Source: Rhodothalassiaceae bacterium (GTDB lineage Bacteria; Pseudomonadota; Alphaproteobacteria; Sphingomonadales; Rhodothalassiaceae). From it: 64,000 nucleotides of DNA. A model generated the notes under the pieces. That model did no database searches and was not told where the DNA came from. It saw nothing but the letters and a program-made list of their open reading frames with translations. Below are positions 3,464 through 53,968 of the stretch, one piece after another. The translations under genes and the position numbers were made by a program. Location: positions 2,703,381 through 2,767,380 of the forward strand of contig BPKC01000001.1 in the NCBI GenBank assembly GCA_026004935.1, read 5' to 3'. How positions within the stretch are numbered: position 1 is the stretch's first letter; the number at the start of each line of letters is the position of its first letter.

Positions 3464-4453
3464 ATGCAAGCTGAGCGGACCTTCGATCAAGGCGCCCGCC
3501 CTGGGCGGGGAGATCCGGTCGGGAAGGGCACGCGTTTGCGGGACAGGCCGGAAAGAGCACAGCGCTGGGCCTTCGTCGCCCTGCTCCTCGGTGCCACGGG
3601 GATCGGCTTTGCGCCCATCTTCGTGCGGCTGGCGGATGTCGGACCGGTCTCCAGCGCCTTCTGGCGCATGGCGCTGGCGCTGCCGCCGCTCGCGCTGTGG
3701 CGGCTGATGAGGGCGGACGGGTCCCCGGCCCGCCGCCTCGCGCCGCCGGCCGACCGCCGCAGCCTGCTGCTCATCGCCGCCGCGGGCGGGTTCTTCGCGG
3801 CCGATCTCGGCTTCTGGCACTGGTCCATCAAGCTGACCTCGGTGGCGAATGCGACGCTGCTCGCCAATCTGAACCCGGTCTTCGTCGCGCTCACGGGCTT
3901 CGTCTTTCTCGGCCACCGCTTCAGACCGCTGTTCCTGTTCGCGATGGCGCTGGCGCTGGCCGGTGCCGTGGTGCTCATGGGCCGCAGCGTGGAGATATCC
4001 GCCGAACGGGTGATCGGCGATCTGCTCGGGGTGGCCACCGCGATGATGTACGCCGGCTACTTCCTGTCGACGGCGGCGCTGCGCAGCCGGCACGACACCT
4101 GGACGGTGCTCTTCTACTCGGTGCTGATCACGGCGCTGGTGCTGGGACCGCTCGCCGCGGCGAGCGAGACCGCGCTGCTGCCCCGCAGTCCCAAGGGATG
4201 GCTGGTGGTGGTGGCGCTGGCGCTGGTCTGCCAGATCGCGGGCCAGGGGCTGATCGTCTTCGCGCTCGCCCATCTGCCGCCGGCGTTTTCGGCACTGAGC
4301 CTGCTGCTGCAGCCGGTGGTGGCGGCGGCGGCGGCCTGGGTGCTCTTCGGCGAAGCGCTGGGGGCGGGCGAACTTGCGGGCGCCGCCCTCGTGCTCGCGG
4401 GCATCTGGCTTGCCCGCCTGTCCGTATTGGGCCGGCGCCGCGCGGCCGGCTGA
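3464..4453 (+). CDS. DMT-superfamily exporter (two EamA domains)
   Basis: An inner-membrane permease of about 330 residues with roughly ten hydrophobic helices arranged as two EamA repeats. The first begins near [24 protein letters not shown] and the second near [17 protein letters not shown]. Family members export metabolites or amino acids, but the substrate cannot be inferred. The start is uncertain: the ATG at 3464 gives a polar N-terminal tail, while a TTG at 3536 follows a GGGAAGGG ribosome-binding site and would start nearer the first helix. It diverges from acs. Confidence 0.85.
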
Positions 4454-4464
4454 CGGCAGGCCCC

Positions 4465-4866
4465 CTAGAGCCCGCCCATTTCGCAGATGCGGTTCCAGAG
4501 CTCGTCGGGCACCGGCATCACGCTCAGCCGCGGCTGGCGCACCAGCGCCCACTCGGCGAAGGCGGGATCCGCCTTGATCTCGGCGAGCGTCACCGGCCGC
4601 GGCAGATGCTCCAGCGCGCGCACGTCGACGAGGCCGGACTTCGGATCGTCCGGGTCGGGATAGAAGCCGCGCACGATCTCGACGATGCCCATGATCCGCT
4701 TCTCGTCGCCCGTGTGGTAGAAGAAGGCGGTGTCGCCCAGCTCCATCTCCTTCATGTGGCCGAGCGCCTGGGCGTTGCGCACGCCGTCCCAGGGCGCGAC
4801 CTGGGCATCGACCTGATCGGCCCAGGACCATTCCGAGGGTTCCGTCTTGAGCAGCCAGTGCGCCAT
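4465..4866 (-). CDS. EVE domain-containing protein
   Basis: 133 residues covering a single EVE domain (PUA-like fold), from MAHWLLKTEPSEWSW through WDGVRNAQA, GDTAFFYHTG and a C-terminal PRLSVMPVP segment. EVE domains bind modified bases in nucleic acids, and stand-alone copies are common in proteobacteria; the biological role of this one is not established. It is the last gene of a leftward series (tsaD, gpsA, YciI, EVE) and converges with the exporter gene 11 bases away. Confidence 0.92.
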   Translation of the reverse strand: MAHWLLKTEPSEWSWADQVDAQVAPWDGVRNAQALGHMKEMELGDTAFFYHTGDEKRIMGIVEIVRGFYPDPDDPKSGLVDVRALEHLPRPVTLAEIKADPAFAEWALVRQPRLSVMPVPDELWNRICEMGGL

Positions 4867-4970
4867 CGCGTCGTCGTCCTTTCCTGCCTCGGTTCGGCCG
4901 GCAAACCGGCTCCGCCTCTCGCTAACCGAGCCGGCCCCGAAAGAAAAGCCGCCGGCCGGGACAGGCGGGC

Positions 4971-5264
4971 TCAGCCGCCGCGTGCGACCCAGGCGCCGAG
5001 CACGCCCCGGATCGGCAGGATCTCCACCCCGGCGAAGATGCCGGCCTTGCGGTAGGGATCGTTCTCGGCGAACAGCCGCGCCGCGGTTTCGCTCGCGGCC
5101 TCGATCACGAAGACGCTGCCCCGCGGGCCGTCCTCGCCCTCGATGGGGCCGGCGAATTTGAGCCGCTCGCCGCAGTCCGCAAGATAGGCGAGATGGTGCG
5201 CCCGGTGCTGCGGCCGCTCGCCCGAGCGAACCGGATCGTCACGCGCGATCACGAGATAGAGCAT
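4971..5264 (-). CDS. YciI-family protein
   Basis: 97 residues forming one YciI-like domain (dimeric alpha-beta barrel fold): MLYLVIARDDP, HRAHHLAYL, GPRGSVFVIEA and FAENDPYRKAGIF are typical. Enzymatic activity is unproven for most members. The start overlaps the end of gpsA by 26 bases, indicating translational coupling in the tsaD-gpsA operon, an arrangement common in alphaproteobacteria. Confidence 0.92.
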   Translation of the reverse strand: MLYLVIARDDPVRSGERPQHRAHHLAYLADCGERLKFAGPIEGEDGPRGSVFVIEAASETAARLFAENDPYRKAGIFAGVEILPIRGVLGAWVARGG

Positions 5265-6273
5265 GTCCCTCCTCCTCCTCGCTGGTGAACGGCCGGTTCA
5301 GCAGCCGCCGCACCACCTCCTCGACCGGCTCGCCGCGGCCGACGAGCGCATGCACCGCCTCGGTGATCGGCATCGCGATGCCCTCGCGCCGGGCGATCTC
5401 GGCGAGAATCCCGGCCGTCCACACGCCCTCGGCCACCGAGCGGCGCTCGCCCAGGACCTCCTCCAGCCGTCTGCCCCGCCCGAGCTCCCGGCCCAGCGAC
5501 ATGTTGCGCGAATCCGTGGAGGTGCAGGTCAGCACCAGGTCGCCCGCGCCGGACAGGCCCGTCATCGTCTCGGCCCGCGCGCCGCGGGCGAGCCCGAAGC
5601 GGATCATCTCCTTCAGCCCGCGGGCGATGAGGGCCGCGCGGGCGTTCTGGCCGAGCCCCAGCCCGTCGACGACGCCGCAGGCGATGGCGATGACGTTCTT
5701 CACCGCCCCGCCGATCTGCGCGCCGATCACGTCGCGCGAGGTATAGGGCCGGAAGGTCGGCTGACCGAGAAGCCGCAGGATGCGCTCGGCGACCGCCGGA
5801 TCGTCGCTCGCGATGGTGACGGCTGCGGGCAGGTTGCGCGCGACCTCGTGGGCGAAGGTGGGACCGGAGAGCACGGCGAGCGGGTGACCCGGCGCCGCGG
5901 CCGCGGCCACCTCGCTCATCAGCCGGCCGCTGCCGCGCTCGATGCCCTTGGCGCAGAGCACGAGCACCGCATCGGCACGCAGCGCGGCGCGCGCCTCGGC
6001 CAGCACGGCGCCCATGAACTGCGCCGGCGTGACCACGAGCACGACGCCGCAATCGCCGAGGACCGCGTAGTCGCTGGCCGCCGTTATCCCCTCGGGAAGC
6101 GGGATGCCCGGGAGATAGACGGGGTTCTCGCGCCGGCCGTTCACCGCCTCGGCCACCTCCGGTTCGCGCGCCCACAGCCTGACCGCGATCCCGCGGCGCG
6201 CCGCCACCGCGGCAAGCGCGGTGCCCCAGGCGCCCGCGCCCAGCACGCCGATCGTCCGCTCCGCCTCGGCCAT
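5239..6273 (-). CDS. gpsA: Glycerol-3-phosphate dehydrogenase [NAD(P)+]
   Basis: 344 residues. It makes sn-glycerol 3-phosphate from dihydroxyacetone phosphate for phospholipid synthesis in the cytosol. The N-terminal Rossmann motif is GVLGAGAWGTALA. The C-terminal helical domain carries KNVIAIACGVVDGLGLGQNARAAL and the substrate-binding TGLSGAGDL segment. I start it at the ATG at 6273 (MAEAERTIG), just ahead of the dinucleotide fold, rather than at 6300. It lies 64 bases downstream of tsaD and overlaps the YciI gene. Confidence 0.96.
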   Translation of the reverse strand: MAEAERTIGVLGAGAWGTALAAVAARRGIAVRLWAREPEVAEAVNGRRENPVYLPGIPLPEGITAASDYAVLGDCGVVLVVTPAQFMGAVLAEARAALRADAVLVLCAKGIERGSGRLMSEVAAAAAPGHPLAVLSGPTFAHEVARNLPAAVTIASDDPAVAERILRLLGQPTFRPYTSRDVIGAQIGGAVKNVIAIACGVVDGLGLGQNARAALIARGLKEMIRFGLARGARAETMTGLSGAGDLVLTCTSTDSRNMSLGRELGRGRRLEEVLGERRSVAEGVWTAGILAEIARREGIAMPITEAVHALVGRGEPVEEVVRRLLNRPFTSEEEEGHALSRDRA

Positions 6274-11676: not shown

Positions 11677-11752
11677 GCCGATGTAGCTCAGCTGGTAGAG
11701 CAGCGCATTCGTAATGCGCGGGTCGGGGGTTCGAGTCCCTCCATCGGCACCA
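11677..11752 (+). tRNA. tRNA-Thr (anticodon CGT)
   Basis: A complete cloverleaf. The acceptor strands GCCGATG/CATCGGC pair, the anticodon stem GCGCA/TGCGC encloses the loop TTCGTAA with anticodon CGT, a GGTTCGAGTCC T-arm follows, and CCA is encoded. CGT reads ACG, a threonine codon. Its 3' end has been used as an integration site: 19 bases are repeated at 15878-15896. Confidence 0.97.
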
Positions 11753-11754
11753 TC
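11736..11754 (+). repeat. attL-like direct repeat in tRNA-Thr 3' end
   Basis: TCCCTCCATCGGCACCATC comprises part of the T-arm, the acceptor 3' strand and CCA. It is repeated exactly at 15878-15896, which marks the island boundary and leaves the tRNA functional. Confidence 0.85.
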
Positions 11755-11804
11755 TGCCGGCAACGCATTGAAGCTGCTGATCGCACAGGTTTTTCCGATG
11801 CGGG

Positions 11805-11826
11805 TGGTACACAAGACTGGTACACA
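11805..11826 (+). repeat. Two TGGTACACA boxes near the left end of the island
   Basis: TGGTACACA occurs at 11805-11813 and 11818-11826, 13 bases apart start to start. A third exact box (15807-15815) and a degenerate fourth (TGGTCCACG, 15821-15829) lie near the right end. Spacing and placement suit integrase arm-type binding sites; that role is inferred. Confidence 0.6.
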
Positions 11827-12154
11827 TCGCCCCGGGGAAGACGTGAAGAGAACCCGCTATCTCATCCGCATCGGCCACCTCCGGTACGTGCGCATCCGCC
11901 GGCCGAAGGAGGTCGACCGGATCCGTCATCGCGATTGGCGCCCGCGCGGACGTGCACGCCCCATCGTGAGAGGCTTCCGCCGACATCGGACGGCAAGACA
12001 GCACGAGTAGATCCCCGCTTGAGAACGGTTGAGCGGCGGGAGCAGAAGTCTTGCCATATACATCTCTCCGGTTGACCGATTGGGCTGACCGCCCCAATAT
12101 GGTGGCCCGGAAACACGCTCTTCTCGGGGAAAAGGGGCGGGAAGGTCTCCTGTC

Positions 12155-12577
12155 ATGCCGGAGCTTCTGGCGGGTCAGGTCCAGCGCAAGCTCGGCGCGG
12201 TGCCGAGCCGGGTTCATGGCGACATCTCCGGCGCCTTCAAGGAGCTGCGCAAGCTGCCCAAGGACGACGATCGCCTCCGGGCAAAGGCCGGGGCCGGCTC
12301 GTGCGTCCCGGATCCGAACAGGGCCGGCGACCTGAAGAAGCTCCGCGGGCGGGCATGGCCGCCCGCCTGTGAGCAGGACCGCGAGTCCGCCTTGAGGCGC
12401 CCCAAAGTGTTCCGCCGCGAGGCGGTGCGCGTCGCCTTCAGGAAGGCGTGGCAAGAGCGGGACTATCCGACCATTCTCGCGGTGGCGCGCAAGATCCCCG
12501 AGAACGCCCTCCAGGAGAATCCCAGGCTCCTCATGTGGTACGAGCTGGCGCTTACCCGATCCGGGGAGGACGGATAA
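12155..12577 (+). pseudogene. C-terminal remnant of a larger defence-type gene
   Basis: A 140-codon open frame that looks like the joined remains of a longer protein. The last part (FRKAWQERDYPTILAVARK, then ENPRLLMWYELALTR) reads as a genuine conserved tail, whereas the front is atypical. From memory such tails occur in large proteins of DNA-modification defence loci, but I cannot name the family securely. It ends 26 bases before the TrlF-like start, consistent with a former operon. No convincing ribosome-binding site or start was found. Confidence 0.45.
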
Positions 12578-12602
12578 CGCTATGAGTCATGGGAGGAAGG
12601 GC

Positions 12603-15281
12603 ATGAGCGATACAGATCCCATGGCGGAGGCGCTGAAGCTGCCCAGCGGCGCACGGTTCTATCGCTGCGCGCTTCAGGTTAATCCATTCGACTACGTCAA
12701 GCGTCATAACAGGGAAACGGCGTTTGAGGATGAGACGTCATACAACGCCGCCATCGTGCAGGCCTGTCTCGATCACGATATTGAGGTCATTGCTATCACT
12801 GACCACTACCGGGTTCACACAGCCGACGGCCTAGCCAAGGCAGCGCGTGACGCAGGTATTCATGTGTTTCCTGGCTTCGAGGCCGTTACCAAAGACGGCG
12901 TTCACATTCTGTGCTTGTTTGAACCAGGTAGAACCACACGAGAGTTGGAACGTATACTTGGCGACTGCGGAATCCACCGGGATGAAGCCGCATCGCCCAC
13001 TGGGAGATATGATGTCATAGAGTTTCTCAAGACAGCTATCCATTCATGGGGAGCGGTTTGTGTAGCAGCTCACGTTGCATCGGATGGTGGGCTCCTCAAG
13101 AGGCTCAGTGGTCAGCCAGCCATAAAAGCGTGGACCTCGCCCCACCTTCTCGCCTGTGCGCTTCCTGGGCCCATCACTGATGCTCCGAACGGCATCCGCC
13201 AGATTCTGGGGAACAAAAATGCGGACTACCGCCGAGATCGACCGGTCGCCGTTATCAACGCCCAAGACGTATCAAGCCCAGAGGACTTCGATAAACCTGG
13301 CGCGTCCTGCTGGATAAAGATGTCCGCGGTCTCCGTCGAAGGCTTACGACAGGCCTTCCTCGATCCTTCTTCACGGATCAGGTTGGCCAGTGACCCGGTC
13401 CCGGAGGAGCACGAAGAGTTCCTGGCACTAACGTGGCAGGGTGGCTTTCTCGACGGCGCCGCGATTCATTTCAACGAGAATCTCAATGTTCTGATCGGTG
13501 GCCGAGGCACCGGCAAATCTACCGTCATCGAAAGCCTCCGTTATGTGTTGGGGCTCGAGCCTCTTGGCGACGACGCCCGCAAGGTACACGAAGGCATTGT
13601 GCGCCATGTCCTGCGTAATGGCACCAAGATTTCACTCCTGGTGCGTGCTCATCGGCCTGCAAAGCGGGATTATCTTATCGAGAGGACGATTCCGAATCCG
13701 CCGATAGTGCGCGATGAATCCGGTAATGTCCTGCAGGTATCGCCCACCCACATCATTCCACAAGTTGAGGTGTATGGTCAGCATGAGATTTCCGAGCTGA
13801 CGAAAAGCCGTGAAAAGCTCACGCACCTGTTGGAACGATTCATCGACCGTGACGCAACCCTAGCACAGCCCAAGAACGACTTGAAGGAAAGGCTCGAGCG
13901 CATACGGGCCAGGATTATCGAGGTGTGGAAAGAACAGAAGGGGATCGAGGATCGCCTTGCGACCCTGCCGGCACTCGAGGAGACCATTCGGCGCTTCCAA
14001 GAAGCAGGAGTAGAGGAGCGCCTGAAGGAACAAAGCCTGCTGGTGCAAGAGGAAAAGGTCCTTGAAACTGCTTTCGAACGCCTTGAACCATTCCGCGAAG
14101 TACTTGACCAGATGGGGCGCCATCTCCCCGTAGATCGCAACTTTCTGTCAGCTGAAGCCTTGAAGGAGTTGCCGGGCAAAGAAGTATTGATGGAAGCGGA
14201 TCAGGTTCTCAAGCGCTTCAGCGAGGCCCTCAATGCCATCAGGGCTCAGGTAGCAACGGCCATCCAGGACGCCGAGGAGGGACTCAAATCAGTTAAGCGC
14301 AAATGGGAGGAACGAGAGAGGGCCGTCAAGCAACAGTATGAGAAGATCCTCCGGGACTTGCAGAAGTCGAAGATTGACGGCGAGGAGTTCATTCAACTGC
14401 GTCGGCAAATTGAGGAGCTTCGCCCCCTTCAAGAACGACAGGGTAAGCTGGCGCGGGACGCGGAGAGATACCTATGTGAGCGGCGAAAGCTGCTCGCGCA
14501 ATGGGAGGACGTAAAGACGAAAGAATTCCGCAAACTGGAACGCGCAGCCAAAAGGGTTAATCGCAAATTAAGGAACCGCGTCAGGGTGACGGTTGCCTTT
14601 GCCGGCAATCGAGAACCGTTGTGCAAGCTGCTTCGCGATGAAGTGGGCGGCCGCCTTTCCGAGGCACTGGACGTGCTGAGCCAGCGTGAGGACCTATCAC
14701 TCGTTGATCTGGCAAGTACATTCCGAGAAGGCAAGGATGCCCTATGTAAGAAGTATGGCCTTTCCCAGTCGCAAGCTGAGCGGCTTGCGCAAGCCGATCC
14801 AGACTTGGTTATGAAGATTGAGGAGCTGGACCTCCCTTCAACAACGACAGTTGAACTGAATGTAGCCCCGGAGGGCGAGGACGCACAGTGGCAAACTCTC
14901 GAAGAGTTGTCGACCGGCCAGAAGGCTACGGCAGTACTGCTGCTCTTGCTGCTGGAAGCCAATGCGCCGTTGGTAGTCGACCAGCCTGAGGACGATCTTG
15001 ACAACCGGTTCATTACCGACGGCGTCGTTCCCAGGATGAAAGAAGAAAAGCGGCGTCGCCAATTCATATTCGCCACTCACAACGCGAACATCCCCGTACT
15101 TGGAGATGCCGAGTTAATCGTAGGTCTAACCGCCTTTGGCGAGGCAGGTCAAGGAAAGGCCAAGCTGCCCAGCGAGCATATGGGTTCCATCGATACCCTG
15201 CTGGTGCGGGAGCTTGTTGAAGAGGTCCTTGAAGGAGGAAAGGACGCTTTCGAGATGCGGAGAAGGAAATATGGCTTTTGA
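12603..15281 (+). CDS. TrlF-like PHP-domain / SMC-type ATPase
   Basis: 892 residues. An N-terminal PHP-like phosphoesterase region (about 1-270) has AITDHYRVH, FPGFEAVTKDGVH and VAAHV, but the first HxH metal motif is replaced by LQVNP. An ABC/SMC-type ATPase follows: Walker A GGRGTGKST (about 299-307), a long coiled coil (about 400-680), the signature ELSTGQKA and Walker B PLVVDQPEDDLDN, then a late THNANIP switch. This architecture matches TrlF-family ATPases found in bacterial defence islands; anti-phage or DNA-processing activity is inferred. ATG 12603 follows GGGAGG by 6 bases; ATG 12582 is possible. Composition is less GC-rich than the chromosome, supporting transfer. Confidence 0.85.
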   Translation: MSDTDPMAEALKLPSGARFYRCALQVNPFDYVKRHNRETAFEDETSYNAAIVQACLDHDIEVIAITDHYRVHTADGLAKAARDAGIHVFPGFEAVTKDGVHILCLFEPGRTTRELERILGDCGIHRDEAASPTGRYDVIEFLKTAIHSWGAVCVAAHVASDGGLLKRLSGQPAIKAWTSPHLLACALPGPITDAPNGIRQILGNKNADYRRDRPVAVINAQDVSSPEDFDKPGASCWIKMSAVSVEGLRQAFLDPSSRIRLASDPVPEEHEEFLALTWQGGFLDGAAIHFNENLNVLIGGRGTGKSTVIESLRYVLGLEPLGDDARKVHEGIVRHVLRNGTKISLLVRAHRPAKRDYLIERTIPNPPIVRDESGNVLQVSPTHIIPQVEVYGQHEISELTKSREKLTHLLERFIDRDATLAQPKNDLKERLERIRARIIEVWKEQKGIEDRLATLPALEETIRRFQEAGVEERLKEQSLLVQEEKVLETAFERLEPFREVLDQMGRHLPVDRNFLSAEALKELPGKEVLMEADQVLKRFSEALNAIRAQVATAIQDAEEGLKSVKRKWEERERAVKQQYEKILRDLQKSKIDGEEFIQLRRQIEELRPLQERQGKLARDAERYLCERRKLLAQWEDVKTKEFRKLERAAKRVNRKLRNRVRVTVAFAGNREPLCKLLRDEVGGRLSEALDVLSQREDLSLVDLASTFREGKDALCKKYGLSQSQAERLAQADPDLVMKIEELDLPSTTTVELNVAPEGEDAQWQTLEELSTGQKATAVLLLLLLEANAPLVVDQPEDDLDNRFITDGVVPRMKEEKRRRQFIFATHNANIPVLGDAELIVGLTAFGEAGQGKAKLPSEHMGSIDTLLVRELVEEVLEGGKDAFEMRRRKYGF

Positions 15282-15328
15282 AAGGCGGGCAACGAGAGCC
15301 TTTCGTTGATGGGAGAAGTCGAACAACA

Positions 15329-15592
15329 ATGACCCTGTCGGTGGAAAACGACAACTCGTACTACAACCCGGACCACGGGCAGCTCTGCCGGGTCGTCGAG
15401 ACCCGGACGCTCTCTGGGGATACCTTCGGCCGCGTCTGGCTGCCGGGCGAGGATGCCGTGGGGCGGCTGCGCGCCACGCCCCGCCAGGAGCTCGTGACAA
15501 AGCTCCATCCACGGGCCGACATGCGGCTTGGGAAGCCGTCAGCTCCGGATCCCGCGCCCGTGGCGTGTCGCCCATCACCGTCCAGAAGGTGA
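15329..15592 (+). pseudogene. N-terminal remnant of a helicase-type defence gene
   Basis: The frame opens MTLSVENDNSYYNPDHGQLC and continues CRVVETRTLSGDTFGRVWLP then GEDAVGRLRATP. The block resembles, from memory, the N-terminal accessory domain of DEAD/SNF2-type helicases in defence islands. After about 55 residues the resemblance stops and the frame ends, so only the front of the gene remains. It lies 47 bases downstream of the TrlF-like gene and was probably the next gene of that operon. Confidence 0.4.
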
Positions 15593-15806
15593 TAAAGGAG
15601 GCGCTGGAGCGGCCCGACGAGCTCCGCGCCCACCCGTAGCGTAGCACGCCCTTCCCTTGCCGTTCTCGCGGAAAGCCGCGCCCGGCCTCACCGGACCGTG
15701 AAGTGGATCAGGCGATCAGGCCGCGGCCTGCGGCCTCGCGCGGGCGCGCGAGGGGTCTGCGTTTTTGCTGCGCCTTGATCGAAGCACTGGCAGACTGCTG
15801 CTCCTC

Positions 15807-15829
15807 TGGTACACACGGCCTGGTCCACG
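15807..15829 (+). repeat. TGGTACACA box pair near the right end of the island
   Basis: TGGTACACA at 15807-15815 and the degenerate TGGTCCACG at 15821-15829. They mirror the pair at 11805-11826. The rest of 15593-15877 holds no gene I can support. Confidence 0.5.
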
Positions 15830-15877
15830 CTGGAAAAACGCGCGTGAGATCAAGCTCTTAATGACATGCGGATGGTC

Positions 15878-15896
15878 TCCCTCCATCGGCACCATC
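15878..15896 (+). repeat. attR-like copy of the tRNA-Thr 3' end
   Basis: Nineteen bases identical to 11736-11754, without the rest of a tRNA. It marks the right boundary of the island, 85 bases beyond the 3' end of the leftward ABC ATPase gene. Confidence 0.85.
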
Positions 15897-15980
15897 GCCC
15901 GCTTCGTCATGAGAAGGCTCTTTTGAGAGCGCGTCATCGGGCGCCGACGGCAGGAGGCGGCGCGCGCTGCGGGCCCGCCT

Positions 15981-46953: not shown

Positions 46954-48099
46954 ATGCGGCCGGCCGGGCGAAAAGGGAGGGGCGGGACGGGCTGCGGACG
47001 GGGGCGCGGCCGCCGCCTTCTTCGTGCGGGCTGCGCCGTGGTCGCCGCGATCCTGGCGGCGGGCGGGGCCGCGGCGGCATCGCCGCTGCCCGATCTTCCC
47101 GAGCCGCTCGCCAACAACGCCGTCGCGGCGGTCTGCCACGGCGGTCATCGCCTCGTGCTGTCTGTCCACGGGCTGGGAGCGGGCCGCAGCTACAAGGACA
47201 TCACGCCGCGCGTGCTGCTTCTCGATCTCGATGCCGAAAGTTCGCGCTGGATGCGGCTTGCCGATGCGCCCATGACGCCCCCAAGACTGGCCGCGAGCGC
47301 GGTGGCGCTCGGCGGCGCGATCCATGTCTTCGGCGGCTATTCGGTGGCCGGAGACGGCGCGGAGACCACCCACCGGGACCACTGGCGATTCGATCCGGCC
47401 ACGGGCCGCTGGCGGCGCATGGCGGACATGCCGGTCGCGGTCGACGACAGCGTCGCTCTCGCCTGGCGCGGCCGCTGGGTCTATCTCGTCTCGGGCTGGC
47501 ATCAGGACGACAACACCGCCGCCGTCCAGCTCTATGACGCCGCCCGCGACAGCTGGACGCGCCTCGCCGACTTTCCGGGCACGCCCGTCTTCGGCCATGC
47601 CGGCGGGCTCGCGCAGGGGCGCATCGTCGTCATCGACGGCGTCGCCGTCACGGGGCGCGACGAGCGGGGGCGGCGGCGTTTCCGCCTCATCTCCCAGGCC
47701 TGGGAGGGCGTGATCGACCCGCATGATCCCGCCCGGGTCACCTGGCGGCGCCTGCCGGACCACCCGGGCCCGCCCGTCTACCGGGCGGCGGCCGCCGGAA
47801 GCGAATCGGCCGGGCTCGTCATCTTCGCCGGCGGCGGCCTTGCGGCCTACAACTACGACGGCATCGCCTACGCGGGCGGGCCGGTGGCGCCGTCCGCGCG
47901 GATCTTCGCCTACGACGCCGGCCGCGGGGCGTGGATCACGCTCGGCAGGCTGGAGCGGGCGAGCATGGACCACCGGGGTCTCGTTCTCGCCGGTTCGCGG
48001 GCGATCGTCATCGGCGGCATGCATGCGGGGCCGCAGGTGAGCAGGGCCGTCGCCGCCATCGATCTCGGCCGCCCCCTTGCGGCGCCCTGCCCGCGCTGA
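46954..48099 (+). CDS. Exported kelch-repeat protein
   Basis: 381 residues. A basic N-terminus and signal peptide (AVVAAILAAGGAAAA) precede kelch beta-propeller blades: IHVFGGYSVAGDG, WRRMADMPVAVDDS, VYLVSGWHQDDN, WTRLADFPGTPVFGHA, LVIFAGGGLAAYNYDG and AIVIGGMHAGP. It resembles periplasmic sialate epimerase-type kelch proteins in form, but no enzymatic role can be assigned. Its last codons and stop are repeated at 51632-51650, at the right edge of the RiPP insert. Confidence 0.88.
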   Translation: MRPAGRKGRGGTGCGRGRGRRLLRAGCAVVAAILAAGGAAAASPLPDLPEPLANNAVAAVCHGGHRLVLSVHGLGAGRSYKDITPRVLLLDLDAESSRWMRLADAPMTPPRLAASAVALGGAIHVFGGYSVAGDGAETTHRDHWRFDPATGRWRRMADMPVAVDDSVALAWRGRWVYLVSGWHQDDNTAAVQLYDAARDSWTRLADFPGTPVFGHAGGLAQGRIVVIDGVAVTGRDERGRRRFRLISQAWEGVIDPHDPARVTWRRLPDHPGPPVYRAAAAGSESAGLVIFAGGGLAAYNYDGIAYAGGPVAPSARIFAYDAGRGAWITLGRLERASMDHRGLVLAGSRAIVIGGMHAGPQVSRAVAAIDLGRPLAAPCPR

Positions 48100-48852
48100 C
48101 CGCCGCCTTTGCCTTCGCCTCACCCGGCGGCTCGACCCGGGGGTCCAGCCGACGGCCGAGATGCCCTCCGGCGTCGGGGCGGGCGCGCAGGCCTCTTGGG
48201 TTCGCCGGTCGAGCCGGCGAACGACGATTCGGTGATCAGTCGTCAGTTGTCAGTCATCAGCCATCGGAACGGGGAGCGGCAGCGGCGCGTGCATGCGTAC
48301 CCCTCGCCACCTGCCGGCACTTTCTCCTCGTCACTCATCGGCCTGAAAGGCGGGGCCACTTTTTCCCTCGTCACCCGCCGGCTTGACCGGCGGGTCCAGC
48401 CGACGGCCGAGATGACCTCCGGCGCCGGAGCCGGCACGCAGGCCTCATGGGTTCGCCGGTCAAGCCGGCGAACGACGCTTCAGTGATCAGTCATCAGGGA
48501 TCAGTCATCAGCGCTCGGAACGGCCGGCGCCACCCGGCTCTCCTCTTCGCGTCACCCGCCGGCTCGTCCGGCGGGTCCGGCGGACGCGTCAGACGAAGAC
48601 GACATCGGGCGGCAGGGCCGATCGGTCGCCGAGGGTCTACCGCTCCAGCAGGCGGCGGGCGATGACGTCGGCCTGGATCTCGGCCGCGCCCTCGAAGATG
48701 TTGAGGATGCGCGCATCCACCAGCACGCGGCTGATCGGGTATTCGAGCGCATAGCCGTTGCCGCCGTGGATCTGCAGCGCATTGTCCGCCGCCGACCAGG
48801 CGACGCGCGCCGCCAGCAGCTTCGCCATCCCGGCCTCGAGATCACAGCGCCG
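48080..48852. repeat. Long direct repeat, left copy (kelch end to mcd end)
   Basis: It covers the last codons of the kelch gene, the REP-like spacer and the final 216 bases of an mcd-like frame. The right copy is 51631-52495. The copies differ by a 106-base extra piece in the right copy, a 14-base extra GATCAGTCATCAG-type unit in the left copy, and several substitutions. They bracket the RiPP insert. Apart from the kelch end and the mcd fragment, 48100-48636 holds only palindromic repeats. Confidence 0.9.
48637..48852 (-). pseudogene. Truncated 3' fragment of the mcd acyl-CoA dehydrogenase gene
   Basis: The frame encodes the last residues of the acyl-CoA dehydrogenase ([20 protein letters not shown] to [13 protein letters not shown]) and is the same as 52280-52495, ending with the same stop. 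It breaks off at 48852, where the A+T-rich insert begins. It has no start of its own and is a by-product of the duplication. Confidence 0.9.
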
Positions 48853-48858
48853 CGAAAG

Positions 48859-49989
48859 TCAATCAGGGCGTGTGGCATGAGAACGCGCTTTTCGAGCGGC
48901 GTAGGCGGCACATTCTTCTTGGGGAGTAGGAAGGCCGTTTTCTTTCCAGAAGGCTTCCGCCTTTTCGGGATTGAGAATAGGGGGAACGGCTTTGAAACGG
49001 CCATCGCGACACGTGCCATATGAGCCGTAAATTTGCCGGCCACCACCAAAATTAATGGCATAAGCATCCTCAAGCCCCGCAAAACTAAGAGGATGGATCC
49101 GTTTTCTTACATAAGCTTCATGAAAGGCTTCCCTGATCCTTTCCATAGCCGCCCGTGTTCCCGTGTGTCGAGTGATGACCGAGAGAGGGCCATCAATAGG
49201 ACCATGCGGGTTGGGCGTGAATATGTCGTATTCACCATCAATCAGCTCAACCAATCGCCGCGTGTTATCCTTTTCCAGATAACAGCTTATTGCAAACAGA
49301 AACATGAAAGCTCCACTTTGCTTGGAACCTTTGATATCATTACCTTGCCGGCGAATTGCCATCAGCATTTTTCTAAGTAGCTGATCCAACGCTGCCCGGA
49401 CAAATAATTCATCAGAAGGGGTCTTGACTTCAGCGGAAAAACCGGGCTCCCCGTCAAACGTGAAGATGCGCATGACTGAGGGAAAATCCTCCGAGAGACG
49501 TTGCATCAGATAGGGCCGGATCTCCTCTGCGAGTTGTCGTCGATCAGATGCCGTCCAGTGTAACCGCTCGAAGGCTTCCCGATAGGCAGACATCATGGCC
49601 GAAAGCACTTCTTTGTCCGGGGCGGTTCGGCGGCACGCCCGCCGCCCCACTTTCGCCAATCGGCGAATGCTCGGAGCACCTGATGAAGGATAGGACCGCA
49701 GGCTGCGGGACTCTTCCGGTGGAAGGGGGGAAAACTGCCGTATCGCGCTATCCATCAGAGCATCTACAAATCTTCCTGCCGACCAGGGTACCTGATGAGC
49801 ATCGGATTCCTGGCTTCTCACGGAATGTGCCACCATTACACCCAGAAAAATGGTGATGAACGCTAGTCGTGTCATTCGTATCAGTCCGATTGCTCTTACC
49901 AGAACTCCTTGTGCACGATTGCAAACTTTATTGATCTTGACAACCAAATATTTTCCAGTGGAACATATGTACAGTTCGCTCATATCCAT
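48859..49989 (-). CDS. Unknown exported or membrane-anchored protein of the RiPP cluster
   Basis: 376 residues from ATG 49989, which has AAAGGAG 6 bases upstream; ATG 49875 would start directly at a signal-like helix (MTRLAFITIFLGVMVAHSVR). After the helix the protein is soluble and mostly helical. Recognisable landmarks are a charged central part (SDELFVRAALDQLLRKMLMA) and a C-terminal segment INFGGGRQIYGSYGTCRDGR with PPILNPEKAEAFW. I do not recognise the family. Its place after a graspetide ligase suggests export, processing or self-protection (inference). It stops 7 bases from the left edge of the insert. Confidence 0.7.
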   Translation of the reverse strand: MDMSELYICSTGKYLVVKINKVCNRAQGVLVRAIGLIRMTRLAFITIFLGVMVAHSVRSQESDAHQVPWSAGRFVDALMDSAIRQFSPLPPEESRSLRSYPSSGAPSIRRLAKVGRRACRRTAPDKEVLSAMMSAYREAFERLHWTASDRRQLAEEIRPYLMQRLSEDFPSVMRIFTFDGEPGFSAEVKTPSDELFVRAALDQLLRKMLMAIRRQGNDIKGSKQSGAFMFLFAISCYLEKDNTRRLVELIDGEYDIFTPNPHGPIDGPLSVITRHTGTRAAMERIREAFHEAYVRKRIHPLSFAGLEDAYAINFGGGRQIYGSYGTCRDGRFKAVPPILNPEKAEAFWKENGLPTPQEECAAYAARKARSHATRPD

Positions 49990-50026
49990 GATTGGCTCCT
50001 TTATTCCCGAGTTCCACAAATTAACA

Positions 50027-51067
50027 CTATGAAGCCATTCTGAATGTCGATTTTATCATCCGAGAAATATTGCGCGCGAACATCTCTGCAATTGGCCCTT
50101 CTCCTTGACGCTCAAGCCAAGCCCACTGTCCATCCGCGTTACACTCGAGAAACCACAGCTGCCCTTCTGTATCGACAATGAGGTCAAATATCCCGTAGTG
50201 AAGTCCGGAAGCGTGAAGAAATCGTCGCGACAGTTCGCGCATTTCCCCCGTCGCATTCATCGGCGCATAAATATCCTCATATTGCGCCCGTCGCCAATCC
50301 AGCTCTCCGGATTGACTTTTCTGGGAATCAATCCTGTAGGCAACAGCATCGTTACCGAACGCGGCTAATCGTATCTCATATGCCTTTTCAATACGTTTTT
50401 GATATATTGCTGGCGCGGCTGCTAGAGACTCTCTTGAAGCGCGCGCTATTTCTTCTTTCGTAACAGAATTTGTCAGAATTGTTGCGAACGAAGTGGATTT
50501 GTCAAGAGGAGGAGGAACAAAATTCAAAGACATTGGCTTTACAATGATATCATTATACTTTTCGATGAAACTAACTATCTTTTTCTTGTGAGAAGATATC
50601 AATGTTTGAGGAACTCTAAATCCGACATCTTTAGCAATTGATATTTGAACTGCCTTGTGTTTTATTGATGATACGCGATATATATCATTAAAATGTTTTA
50701 TATCATATAAGCGTATGAGTGATTTCAAAAAGTTTGTATGTTCATTGACAGAGACATAAGCCCATTGGTCGGATGAACTCTCAATACAATCAACAAATTT
50801 TTTATTTCTTACCCAGATATATGATATTTGTTCAGGAACTAGCAACTTAATACTTTCGACCTCTTCTTTGCCACCAGATGATATCAGTGTTTCTGCGCAA
50901 ATCTCCGCTTTCATTTCCACGTTCAGCGGCTCAAGATTCACACGAGCCAATCGCAGCGGATCATAGAAGGCACAAGCGATTCCTTTTTGACGAAGAATTC
51001 GCTCGGGAAATCGTACATGTGCATCGTCAAGGCCACCATATATGAGAAGATATTTCAGGTCAGACAC
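50027..51067 (-). CDS. Graspetide-type ATP-grasp ligase (MvdC/MvdD-like)
   Basis: 346 residues starting at GTG 51067, with GGGAGG 7 bases upstream. ATP-grasp features include DVGFRVPQTLISS, the nucleotide lysine in DIIVKPMSLNF (K177), IDSQ (246-249) and LDWRR (257-261), a pair typical of ligases that make omega-ester or omega-amide cross-links in microviridin-like peptides, and the metal-binding FLECNADGQW (E308, N310). It would macrocyclise the precursor encoded just upstream by joining Ser/Thr or Lys side chains to Asp/Glu. A+T-rich codon use differs from the chromosome. Confidence 0.85.
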   Translation of the reverse strand: MSDLKYLLIYGGLDDAHVRFPERILRQKGIACAFYDPLRLARVNLEPLNVEMKAEICAETLISSGGKEEVESIKLLVPEQISYIWVRNKKFVDCIESSSDQWAYVSVNEHTNFLKSLIRLYDIKHFNDIYRVSSIKHKAVQISIAKDVGFRVPQTLISSHKKKIVSFIEKYNDIIVKPMSLNFVPPPLDKSTSFATILTNSVTKEEIARASRESLAAAPAIYQKRIEKAYEIRLAAFGNDAVAYRIDSQKSQSGELDWRRAQYEDIYAPMNATGEMRELSRRFLHASGLHYGIFDLIVDTEGQLWFLECNADGQWAWLERQGEGPIAEMFARNISRMIKSTFRMAS

Positions 51068-51096
51068 TTTCTGGCCTCCCTTGCCAGAAAATTGCT

Positions 51097-51130
51097 AGAG
51101 AAGGGGTAGACATCTCTCTACCCCTTCTCT
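51097..51130 (-). terminator. Perfect 14-bp hairpin between precursor and ligase
   Basis: AGAGAAGGGGTAGA and TCTACCCCTTCTCT pair completely around a 6-base loop. In the direction of transcription it lies 23 bases after the precursor stop and 29 bases before the ligase GTG, and is followed by only a short T-run. It probably acts as a partial terminator or mRNA stabiliser so that the precursor is made in excess over the ligase, as is common in RiPP operons. Confidence 0.75.
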
Positions 51131-51153
51131 TTCGCTAAATTGATCGTCCCTCC

Positions 51154-51402
51154 CTATTCCGCATCAACGGCTCTGTCGTCGCCTCGACAGAATTCCAGAT
51201 GGAGAAGATTGCAGGAAGTAAGGTAGCAGTAGGTCGAACTCGGCAGGAACGGCACGGTTTCGGCACCTCCAATCATGTGCATCTCCTGCTCCGAAAGATC
51301 GCGGAGAGCATCGCGGTCTTTTTGCCGATCAAGATCAAAGCTCTCTCGCTTTCCAAGAATAAACGGCCGAACGATTCGGCTTAGACTGCCATGTGCATGC
51401 AT
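51154..51402 (-). CDS. RiPP precursor peptide (putative graspetide)
   Basis: 82 residues. ATG 51402 follows AGGAAGGG by 7 bases. The leader has a basic front (SLSRIVRPFILGKRESF) and a bacteriocin-type end LRDLSEQEMHMIGG with a double glycine at 45-46. The 36-residue core is rich in possible nucleophiles (SSTYCYLTSC) followed by acidic acceptors (E70, D75, D76, D80, E82), as needed for omega-ester rings, and has three cysteines (C59, C64, C72). I infer a graspetide-type product; the pattern is not one of the microviridin core motifs I know. Confidence 0.75.
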   Translation of the reverse strand: MHAHGSLSRIVRPFILGKRESFDLDRQKDRDALRDLSEQEMHMIGGAETVPFLPSSTYCYLTSCNLLHLEFCRGDDRAVDAE

Positions 51403-51630
51403 CGGTAAACCCTTCCTCTTGGCTCCTGCCCCCCGAGCGATCTCCGGACGCGCTTCCTGCGCCTCCCAGTCACCCGCACACCGGTGGCAGAACCGGCATA
51501 TTCCCTCTACCCTCCCCTGCACATAGCTAGTCAAGAGGGTTCTTGTTCACAATCTCGTGAGCTTGGCGCGCATATTCACGCAGGAAAAGCAAGCCAGCCG
51601 CTGGGCTTTATCCGGGGCGCCATCCAAAAA

Positions 51631-52495
51631 CGGCGCCCTGCCCGCGCTGACCGCCGCCTTCCCCGTCGCCTCACCCGGCGGCACGACCGGCGGGTGCATC
51701 TTCCTCTCTTCGGGGCCCGCCGGCACATTCGCTCCGTCACGCGCAGGCCTGAAAGGCGGGGCCACTTTTTCCCTCGTCACCCGGCGGCTCGACCCGGGGG
51801 TCCAGCCGACGGCCGAGATGCCCTCCGGCGCAGGAGCCGGCACGCAGGCCTCATGGGTTCGCCGGTCGAGCCGGCGAACGACGATTCGGTGATCAGTCGT
51901 CAGTTGTCTGTCATCAGCCAGCGGAACGGGGAGCGGCAGCGGCGCGTGCATGCGTGCTACTCGCCACCTGCCGGCACTTTCTCCTCGTCACTCATCGGCC
52001 TGAAAGGCGGGGCCACTTTTTCCCTCGTCACCCGCCGGCTTGACCGGCGGGTCCAGCCGACGGCCGAGATGACCTCCAGCGCCGGAGCCGGCACGCAGGC
52101 CTCATGGGTTCGCCGGTCGAGCCGGCGAACGACGCTTCAGGGATCAGTCATCAGCGCTCGGAACGGCCGGCGCCACCCGGCTCTCCTCTTCGCGTCACCC
52201 GCCGGCTCGTCCGGCGGGTCCGGCGGACGCGTCAGACGAAGACGACATCGGGCGGCAGGGCCGATCGGTCGCCGAGGGTCTACCGCTCCAGCAGGCGGCG
52301 GGCGATGACGTCGGCCTGGATCTCGGCCGCGCCCTCGAAGATGTTGAGGATGCGCGCATCCACCAGCACGCGGCTGATCGGGTATTCGAGCGCATAGCCG
52401 TTGCCGCCGTGGATCTGCAGCGCATTGTCCGCCGCCGACCAGGCGACGCGCGCCGCCAGCAGCTTCGCCATCCCGGCCTCGAGATCACAGCGCCG
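51631..52495. repeat. Long direct repeat, right copy (kelch end to mcd end)
   Basis: Counterpart of 48080-48852. It begins with the last codons and stop of the kelch gene (51632-51650), continues with REP-like palindromes and ends within the intact mcd gene. The non-coding part 51651-52279 contains only repeats, including CCGCCGG-cttga-CCGGCGG palindromes. Confidence 0.9.
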
Positions 52496-53968
52496 GCCCG
52501 AATCCTTCTCTTCGGCCGCATGCAGGGTGAGCGCGCGCGTCATCCACAGCTCGGCCGCCGACAGCGCCAGCTTCTCCGCCACCCGCGGGAAGGCGATGAG
52601 CGGCCGGCCGAACTGGATGCGCTCGCCCGCATAGCGCAGCCCCAGCGCGAGCGCCGCCGCGCCGACGCCGAGTGCGCGCGCCGCCGTCTGAATGCGCGCC
52701 GACTCGAATGTCGCCATGAGCTGCTTGAAGCCCTGGCCCTCGACCCCGCCCAGGAGCCCCGATGCCGGCACCCGGAAGCCGTCGAAGGCGATCTCGTATT
52801 CCTTCATGCCGCGGTAGCCGAGCACCCTGATCTCGGTGCCCGTCATGCCGTCCGCCGGAAAAGGGTTGTCGTCCGTGCCGCGGGGCTTCGGCGCAAGGAA
52901 CATCGACAGCCCCCTGTAGCCCGGCTCGTCCGGATCGGTGCGGGCCAAGAGCGTCATCAGATCCGCGCGGGCGGCATGGGTGATCCAGGTCTTGGCGCCG
53001 AAGATGCGGTAGTGGTCGCCCTCGCGCACGGCGCGCGTCTTCAGATGGGCGAGGTCCGAGCCGTGATTGGGCTCGGTGAAGACGGCCGTCGGCAGCACGG
53101 AGCCGTCGGCGATCTTCGGCAGCCACGCGGCCTTCTGTTCGGGGGTGCCGCCGGTCATGATGAGCTCGGCGGCGATCTCGGCGCGGGTGCCGAGCGAGCC
53201 GAGGCCGATGTAGCCGCGCGAGAGCTCCTCGGAGACCACGCACATCGCCGCCTTGCCGAGCCCGGAGCCGCCGTGCTCTTCGGAGATGGTGAGCCCGAAG
53301 ACGCCCATCTGCGCGAGCTCCGCGATGACCTCGAGCGGGATCAGGGCGTCGTCGAGATGCCAGCGGTGGGCATCCTCCTGATGCGCGTCGGCGAAGCGCG
53401 CGAAGGTCTCGCGCACCAGCGTCAGCGTGTCGTCGAGATCGACGGCATCAAGGGCCCGCGCGCCCTCGCCGAGCCGGGCGGCAAGCGCAAGGCGGTGCCG
53501 CCTGCGGTCGGGATCGCCGGCCAGCGCGACCAGTTCTTCGCTGCCGCCCGCCCCCGGATCGATGCCGATGTCGGCCGGGCGCGCGAATTCGGTCTGGCTC
53601 ATCGGCACGGCGGACAGAAGCTGGGCGGCGTATTCGCCGGCGCCCACCGCCAGCATCAGCGCCTCGGTCTCGCCGAAGCGCCCCGCCTCCTCCAGCCGGC
53701 GGGCCATCGCGGCCGCCTGCTGGAGGGCCGCCGCCGTCGTCGCATACCAGGCGAGCGCGTGGGCGCGCCCCTGCTCGGCCGCAAGCCGGCGGCGGCGCTG
53801 GTCCCGGTCCAGTCCGGCAAGTTCCGCGCGCATCGCCTCGGCGGCCCGCTCCACCAGCGCCGCGGCCTCCCGGCCCGCCGCCTCGGCGCGCTGCACGAGC
53901 GCCCGGCGCGCCGGCGCAGATGAGAGATCGCCCGCCTCGGCGGCGAGGGGTGCGGTGGTGGCGCTCAC
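52280..53968 (-). CDS. mcd: (2S)-Methylsuccinyl-CoA dehydrogenase
   Basis: 562 residues. It is an FAD-dependent acyl-CoA dehydrogenase with an N-terminal extension of about 150 residues, as in the methylsuccinyl-CoA dehydrogenases of the ethylmalonyl-CoA pathway. Core motifs are [74 protein letters not shown] and [18 protein letters not shown]. Its place 31 bases downstream of ccr supports the assignment over a generic fatty-acid enzyme. The 3' end is duplicated at 48637-48852. Confidence 0.93.

Follow-up and report, generated by a model that had tools for sequence, protein, structure and literature searches.

The window analysed here is a 64,000-nucleotide stretch of a Rhodothalassiaceae bacterium chromosome (contig BPKC01000001.1, positions 2,703,381 to 2,767,380). 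Inspection of its open reading frames and sequence showed three genes and one hairpin, all on the minus strand, within an insert at positions 48853-51630. From right to left, these are a gene for an 82-aa precursor peptide with an ATG start (51154-51402), an RNA hairpin with a perfect 14-bp stem (51097-51130), a gene for a 346-aa graspetide synthetase of the ATP-grasp ligase type with a GTG start (50027-51067), and an ORF for a predicted exported protein of 338 aa with a signal-like N terminus (48859-49875). The stop codon of this third gene lies about 7 bp inside the insert boundary. All of the elements listed in the original prediction, including the IDSQ, DWR and ECN signatures of the ATP-grasp gene, were found on the predicted strand. 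The insert has a G+C content of 48.6% as compared with 71-73% in its flanks, so the description of an A+T-rich unit in a GC-rich chromosome is correct as a relative term. Only the three genes lie within the insert, with no integrase, transposase or transfer genes among them, and none of the three encodes an exporter, protease, peptidase, acetyltransferase or O-methyltransferase. On one side the insert is followed by an intact host acyl-CoA dehydrogenase-like gene (52280-53968, minus strand), and on the opposite side lies a host Kelch-like gene (46954-48099, plus strand).

To place the ligase, we compared it with profile libraries, structures and related enzymes. The best NCBIfam models were the SAV_5884-type (TIGR04187, E = 5.6e-49), MvdC (TIGR04185, 2.5e-37) and MvdD (TIGR04184, 1.5e-36) ligases. 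The scores were under the curated cut-offs (167 vs 350 bits), and the enzyme is therefore a distant member of the family. In the PDB, a profile built from the window ligase plus two of its relatives matched only graspetide synthetases or MvdD-like proteins at E ≤ 1e-5: CdnC, AMdnB, the ATP-grasp ligases of 5ig8 and 5ig9, and one MvdD-like protein. The signatures I246-D-S-Q, D257-W-R and E308-C-N are conserved among three close relatives. A maximum-likelihood tree grouped the window ligase with two paralogues from the host genome and the ligase of ‘Alphaproteobacteria bacterium isolate J084’ in one clade (99/99), separate from Nostoc MvdC/MvdD and Streptomyces TgmB (supports 99/99 and 98/95), while the Nostoc MvdC and MvdD paired together (97/96). 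A microviridin (MvdC/MvdD) cluster was ruled out by the position of the window ligase outside the MvdC/MvdD clade, and a Tgm (TgmA/TgmB/TgmC) cluster by the failure of the ligase to group with TgmB and by the lack of a TgmC-type methyltransferase in the insert. Models for glutathione synthetase, RimK and MptN scored far lower, ruling out a non-peptide ATP-grasp enzyme, and recent plasmid origin was excluded by the best plasmid-borne ligases being 23-33% identical. Placement by graspetide profiles and a tree, which had been proposed as a check, thus favoured the graspetide models, gave the ligase its own supported clade and spoke against a non-peptide family. Among 385 genomes sampled from the class, a ligase match at E ≤ 1e-20 was found in two further genomes beside the host.

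The precursor gene has a GAGGAAGG-type ribosome-binding site upstream of its ATG. Its product begins with a leader containing PFIL-x-K-R-E and LSEQE...IGG, followed by a core that runs ...SSTYCYLTSCNLLHLEFCRGDDRAVDAE. Alignment of four precursors (the window, host loci L009 and L010, and J084) revealed a common leader, P-F-[IL]-[LF]-x-K-[RK]-E, and a common core, [ST]-T-x-C ... C-x-x-D-D-x3-D. Residues P13, F14, K18, E20, T57, C59, C72, D75, D76 and D80 are invariant among the four; column 56 is Ser or Thr, and T57 is the sole invariant Thr column. The candidate donors and acceptors conserved in the core are therefore the Ser/Thr of column 56, T57, D75, D76 and D80, and a GG-like cleavage site is present in three of the four precursors. 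The published leader motif Phhx(1,2)h fits our leader only loosely, and no match to the core was found among the published motifs compared, in line with the original prediction that the core would be unlike known ones. Because just four aligned precursors exist, the core pattern rests on few sequences. The precursor frame is nevertheless kept beside related ligases, and its conservation, together with the HMM and PDB matches and the conserved signatures of the ligase, supports the assignment to a graspetide-type RiPP cluster.

The spacer between the precursor and ligase genes of the window folded with z-scores of -5.6 to -6.9, and 0 shuffles folded as well. A hairpin occupies the same place in all six cassettes examined (the window and five others), but the sequences are unrelated. 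It was significant in five of the six (z -3.6 to -5.6), the exception being locus L011 (z -1.35). That the place is kept while the sequence is not suggests that the hairpin helps to determine how much precursor is made relative to enzyme.

The protein encoded by the third gene starts with a hydrophobic, signal-like stretch, and the gene is conserved across the sister cassettes that share the three-gene order. None of Pfam, NCBIfam or PADLOC recognises it. The Pfam model for DUF6624 (PF20329) gave no match at E ≤ 1 genome-wide, and none for five members of the family. A profile of these five members aligned with two DUF6624 proteins by hhalign at E = 3.5e-4 and a probability of 37% in a single comparison, in a register that spans the conserved H...YA..D...Q-x-YGT-x-G-x-C region. 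The AF2 model of the third protein is fair (pLDDT 78, pTM 0.75) and mostly helical, with a similar order of predicted elements to a model of DUF6624 that is itself poor (pLDDT 53, two sequences). Foldseek returned no match to the third-protein model at E ≤ 0.001, and the best VIA-align result (Z 5.3, 14-3-3 helical bundles) was within background for helical models; absence of a clear fold match does not show a new fold. From this profile alignment we read the third protein as a probable, highly divergent relative of DUF6624 with a predicted periplasmic role. The original prediction of an ‘unknown exported protein’ is thus upheld as to an exported-type ORF, while ‘unknown’ gives way to a probable family (profile-profile E 3.5e-4). 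DUF6624 is reported to be highly frequent in graspetide groups 18, 20, 23 and 42 and has been considered a possible undiscovered biosynthetic enzyme class (PMC13097080). A secreted protein family associated with graspetides has also been described as abundant and as having conserved His and Arg residues (PMC8939145); going by the descriptions, it may be the same as the family of our third gene.

Eight ligase-like places in the host genome resolved into six loci: the window, L009, L010, L011, L012 and L013. The L009 ligase is intact and 52% identical to that of the window. The L010 ligase is 50% identical, and a frameshift divides it between two frames that overlap (L010 7916-6707, minus strand); the precursor and third gene of this cassette are open, so it is either a decaying cassette or the product of a sequencing error. 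The three-gene order recurs, with related proteins, at L009 and L010 and in J084, a MAG of the host's genus, on contig RFIU01000118.1. A genome-wide contig scan with two narrow patterns returned one locus. Since the same genes, the same order and alignable precursors recur at three other places, the cassette is more than a chance arrangement. We judge it to be a lineage-restricted form of graspetide gene cluster. Several related loci differ from this plan. At L012 (6122-9389), two graspetide ligases lie side by side, accompanied by three precursors of another type (leader ...AR.L...E...VSG[GA]), and at L013 (6936-5935, minus strand) the third gene is replaced by one for a ChaN/Tiki-type haem-binding-like protein (PF04187, 3.1e-6, barely above the cut-off). 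Two loci in another genus of the family are partial relatives, degraded cassettes: L045 (7677-8944, minus strand) retains the C-terminal half of a ligase and a DUF6624-like third gene with an FIIQHAD motif, and L046 (8600-9226) a ligase remnant and a gene for a secreted protein.

Host DNA is directly repeated on the two sides of the insert, a feature absent from the original prediction: the left copy has 773 bp (48080-48852), the right copy 865 bp (51631-52495), and they are about 96% identical. Self-BLAST resolved these into a main aligned part (48102-48852 / 51761-52495, 95.6%), of which the last ~360 bp are identical, and a shorter one (48080-48147 / 51631-51698, 90%). Each copy takes in the final ~20 bp of the Kelch-like gene, the whole intergenic region, where REP-like palindromes lie, and the 3’-terminal ~215 bp of the acyl-CoA dehydrogenase gene; the left copy thus holds a fragment of the dehydrogenase gene, and the right copy includes the 3’ end of the intact one. 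Together with the step in G+C content, these repeats identify the window cassette as an inserted block. No empty site was found for this insertion, as J084 keeps the acyl-CoA dehydrogenase gene but not its Kelch-like neighbour.

We also asked whether other cassettes are similarly flanked. Direct repeats were present at four of seven, one of them weak, with lengths from 46 to 865 bp. The L013 repeat is 66 bp long (97%) and consists of the 3’ end of a UbiA-like gene, the J084 repeat (locus L037) is 46 bp long (93%) and consists of the 3’ end of a glycolate-oxidase-like gene, and the L011 repeat is weaker (score 57 vs a shuffle maximum of 35). A flanking repeat was looked for at L009, L010 and L012 and none was found. 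At L013 the insertion is confirmed by J084, where the site is uninterrupted and the UbiA gene is followed directly by the next gene. The cassettes share no repeat sequence, all other left-right combinations scoring at background, and their orientation relative to the target gene varies. As a control, we searched 20 stretches of the host genome (400 kb) for repeat pairs 1.5-6 kb apart, and saw none besides those formed by a CRISPR array or by dispersed REP-like palindromes. Palindromes of this kind, of the GGACCCGCCGGTCAAGCCGGCGGGTGACGA and TCGTTCGCCGGCTTGACCGGCGAACCC types, are scattered between genes and common in this genome, with sites at 48.1-48.6 kb and 51.7-52.2 kb of the window and in L059, L061 and L063. 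CRISPR-like repeats (GTCCTAATGCTGCCCCGATCTCGAGGGGATTGAA) beside a Cas2-like ORF were noted in L050 at about 3850-5430.

Another A+T-rich island (57% G+C) lies elsewhere in the window at 11677-15902, adjoining a tRNA-Thr gene (11677-11752). Duplication of the 3’ end of this tRNA gene forms a direct repeat (11736-11761 / 15878-15902). Within the island is a gene for a PHP + AAA ATPase protein of 899 aa (12582-15281), for which the PADLOC Ppl model gave a match at 2.3e-41. No integrase was seen inside, and an empty site was sought but not found. This island looks like an att-flanked defence island minus its integrase.

Several routes could have brought the graspetide cassettes, which may be mobile, to their sites. 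The repeats are not alike in length, sequence or orientation, so they cannot all be explained by a transposase that makes a fixed duplication, or by a single integrase acting at a single att site: a constant target duplication is ruled out by repeats of 46, 66 and >750 bp, and a shared att sequence or shared cassette ends by our finding none across cassettes. The tyrosine recombinase genes of the host genome lie outside the cassette. One possibility, compatible with the graspetide assignment, is a decayed element of the cis-mobilizable kind (CIME, as defined in PMC5704250), inserted at a gene end by an integrase that was later lost while its attL/attR-like repeats were kept. The 46-66 bp direct repeats with 3’ gene ends around the L013 and L037 cassettes are what such an element would leave, the 4.1-kb island flanked by the duplicated tRNA-Thr 3’ end provides a possible parallel in the same window, and an integrase gene, P4-like in appearance, is present elsewhere in the host genome. 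However, at 773/865 bp the window repeat exceeds the usual size of an att site, the repeats are of various lengths, the cassettes have no repeat sequence in common, their orientation relative to the target gene is not constant, and L009, L010 and L012 have no repeat at all. We consider this explanation less likely than not.

The window repeat could instead be an ordinary tandem duplication, or the result of homologous recombination between REP-like repeats, with no special link to the cassette. Its intergenic part does consist of REP-like palindromes, which were also paired in control stretches, but it takes in ~215 bp of acyl-CoA dehydrogenase coding sequence and abuts the cassette exactly at both edges. 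Furthermore, two sister cassettes have clear repeats free of REP sequence, with a third weaker case, and the 400 kb of controls contained no pairs 1.5-6 kb apart other than CRISPR or REP-like ones. An ordinary duplication is therefore unlikely. A more speculative proposal, which we think improbable as it stands, is that this alphaproteobacterial lineage spreads small RiPP (and perhaps defence) cassettes as integrase-free mobile units that duplicate tens to hundreds of target bases, often at a gene end. Such units could integrate by homology, as circles carrying a piece of host DNA, or by some undescribed mechanism whose target duplications are long and of variable size.

From the gene content and the conserved residues we infer the following pathway. 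The precursor would be made in excess over the ligase, a proposal we make because a strong hairpin separates their genes. The ligase would bind the conserved leader PF[IL][LF]xK[RK]E and, using ATP, join the Ser/Thr side chains of [ST]-T-x-C to the Asp side chains of C-x-x-D-D-x3-D through omega-ester bonds. Once outside the cytoplasm, the two invariant cysteines may pair in a disulfide. Cleavage after the GG-like site and export of the peptide would fall to a double-glycine (C39) ABC exporter whose gene lies elsewhere in the genome, and the DUF6624-like protein might then act on or with it in the periplasm as a partner, a tailoring enzyme or a means of self-protection. Export in trans is possible, since the genome encodes, at 2.314 Mb, a 777-aa protein in which ABC-transporter sequence comes after a C39 peptidase domain, and has another C39 exporter locus at 1.309 Mb. 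By eye, a bacteriocin-export-like locus with its own small precursor was also recognised (L108, 2078-6337 and onward); that precursor is 162 aa long, resembles nitrile-hydratase-leader peptides and ends GGGCKGTSGTVGTFGCPVGTVGFTGTYGCH.

The ligase might instead install some other modification (for example an amide bond, a thioester with the invariant cysteines or an added amino acid), which would make this a related RiPP rather than a classical graspetide. Two invariant cysteines flank the core, there is only one invariant Thr column, and some graspetide synthetases can make amides and non-native thioesters (PMC13097080). Against this, the order of Ser/Thr and then Asp-Asp...Asp fits the donors and acceptors of known graspetides, and the nearest enzyme models are graspetide maturases, so we consider a different chemistry distinctly unlikely. 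Altogether, the cassette is most likely a compact graspetide biosynthetic cluster inserted in the chromosome.

The original prediction went further in calling this the best candidate for an undescribed system. This is right only in part: the class itself is known, and the family of the third gene has already been reported with graspetides (PMC13097080); it is the precursor family and the flanking duplications of the cassette that are undescribed, as far as could be checked. The cassette brings to light a precursor family whose core, putatively bridged by esters, has two invariant cysteines, and the four cassettes in one genus are natural paralogues for testing the ring pattern. It also puts a probable, very distant relative of the uncharacterised DUF6624 family in a minimal context of three genes, which is a good setting for finding the function of that family. 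The flanking duplications are the least expected part of the finding. They suggest that a RiPP cluster lacking any recombinase of its own can be mobile as a bare cassette, which makes the insertion route testable.

In its likeness to a gene block that lacks integration and transfer genes and lies between direct repeats including gene ends, the cassette resembles CIMEs (PMC5704250), but its repeats range from 46 to >750 bp and no integrase-bearing relative was found at these sites. With graspetides in general (microviridin/marinostatin, plesiocin, chryseoviridin, Tgm-type and others) it shares an MvdC/MvdD/SAV_5884-type ligase beside a leader-core precursor, a GG-like site, and a core of Ser/Thr and Asp/Glu. 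It differs from them in that its ligase forms a clade of its own, its core ([ST]TxC...C-x-x-DD-x3-D, with two invariant Cys) is outside the published motifs as far as checked, and it comes without an exporter, protease, acetyltransferase or O-methyltransferase. The secreted Cluster-23 proteins (Makarova et al., 2022, PMC8939145) are, by description, like the third gene product in being secreted, uncharacterised and linked to an ATP-grasp enzyme. The DUF6624-associated groups 18, 20, 23 and 42 (PMC13097080), also compared by description, differ in that our third protein is too distant for the Pfam model and our exporter is unlinked; they have in common with our cassette a DUF6624-like protein accompanying a ligase and a precursor, and a C39 exporter in the genome.
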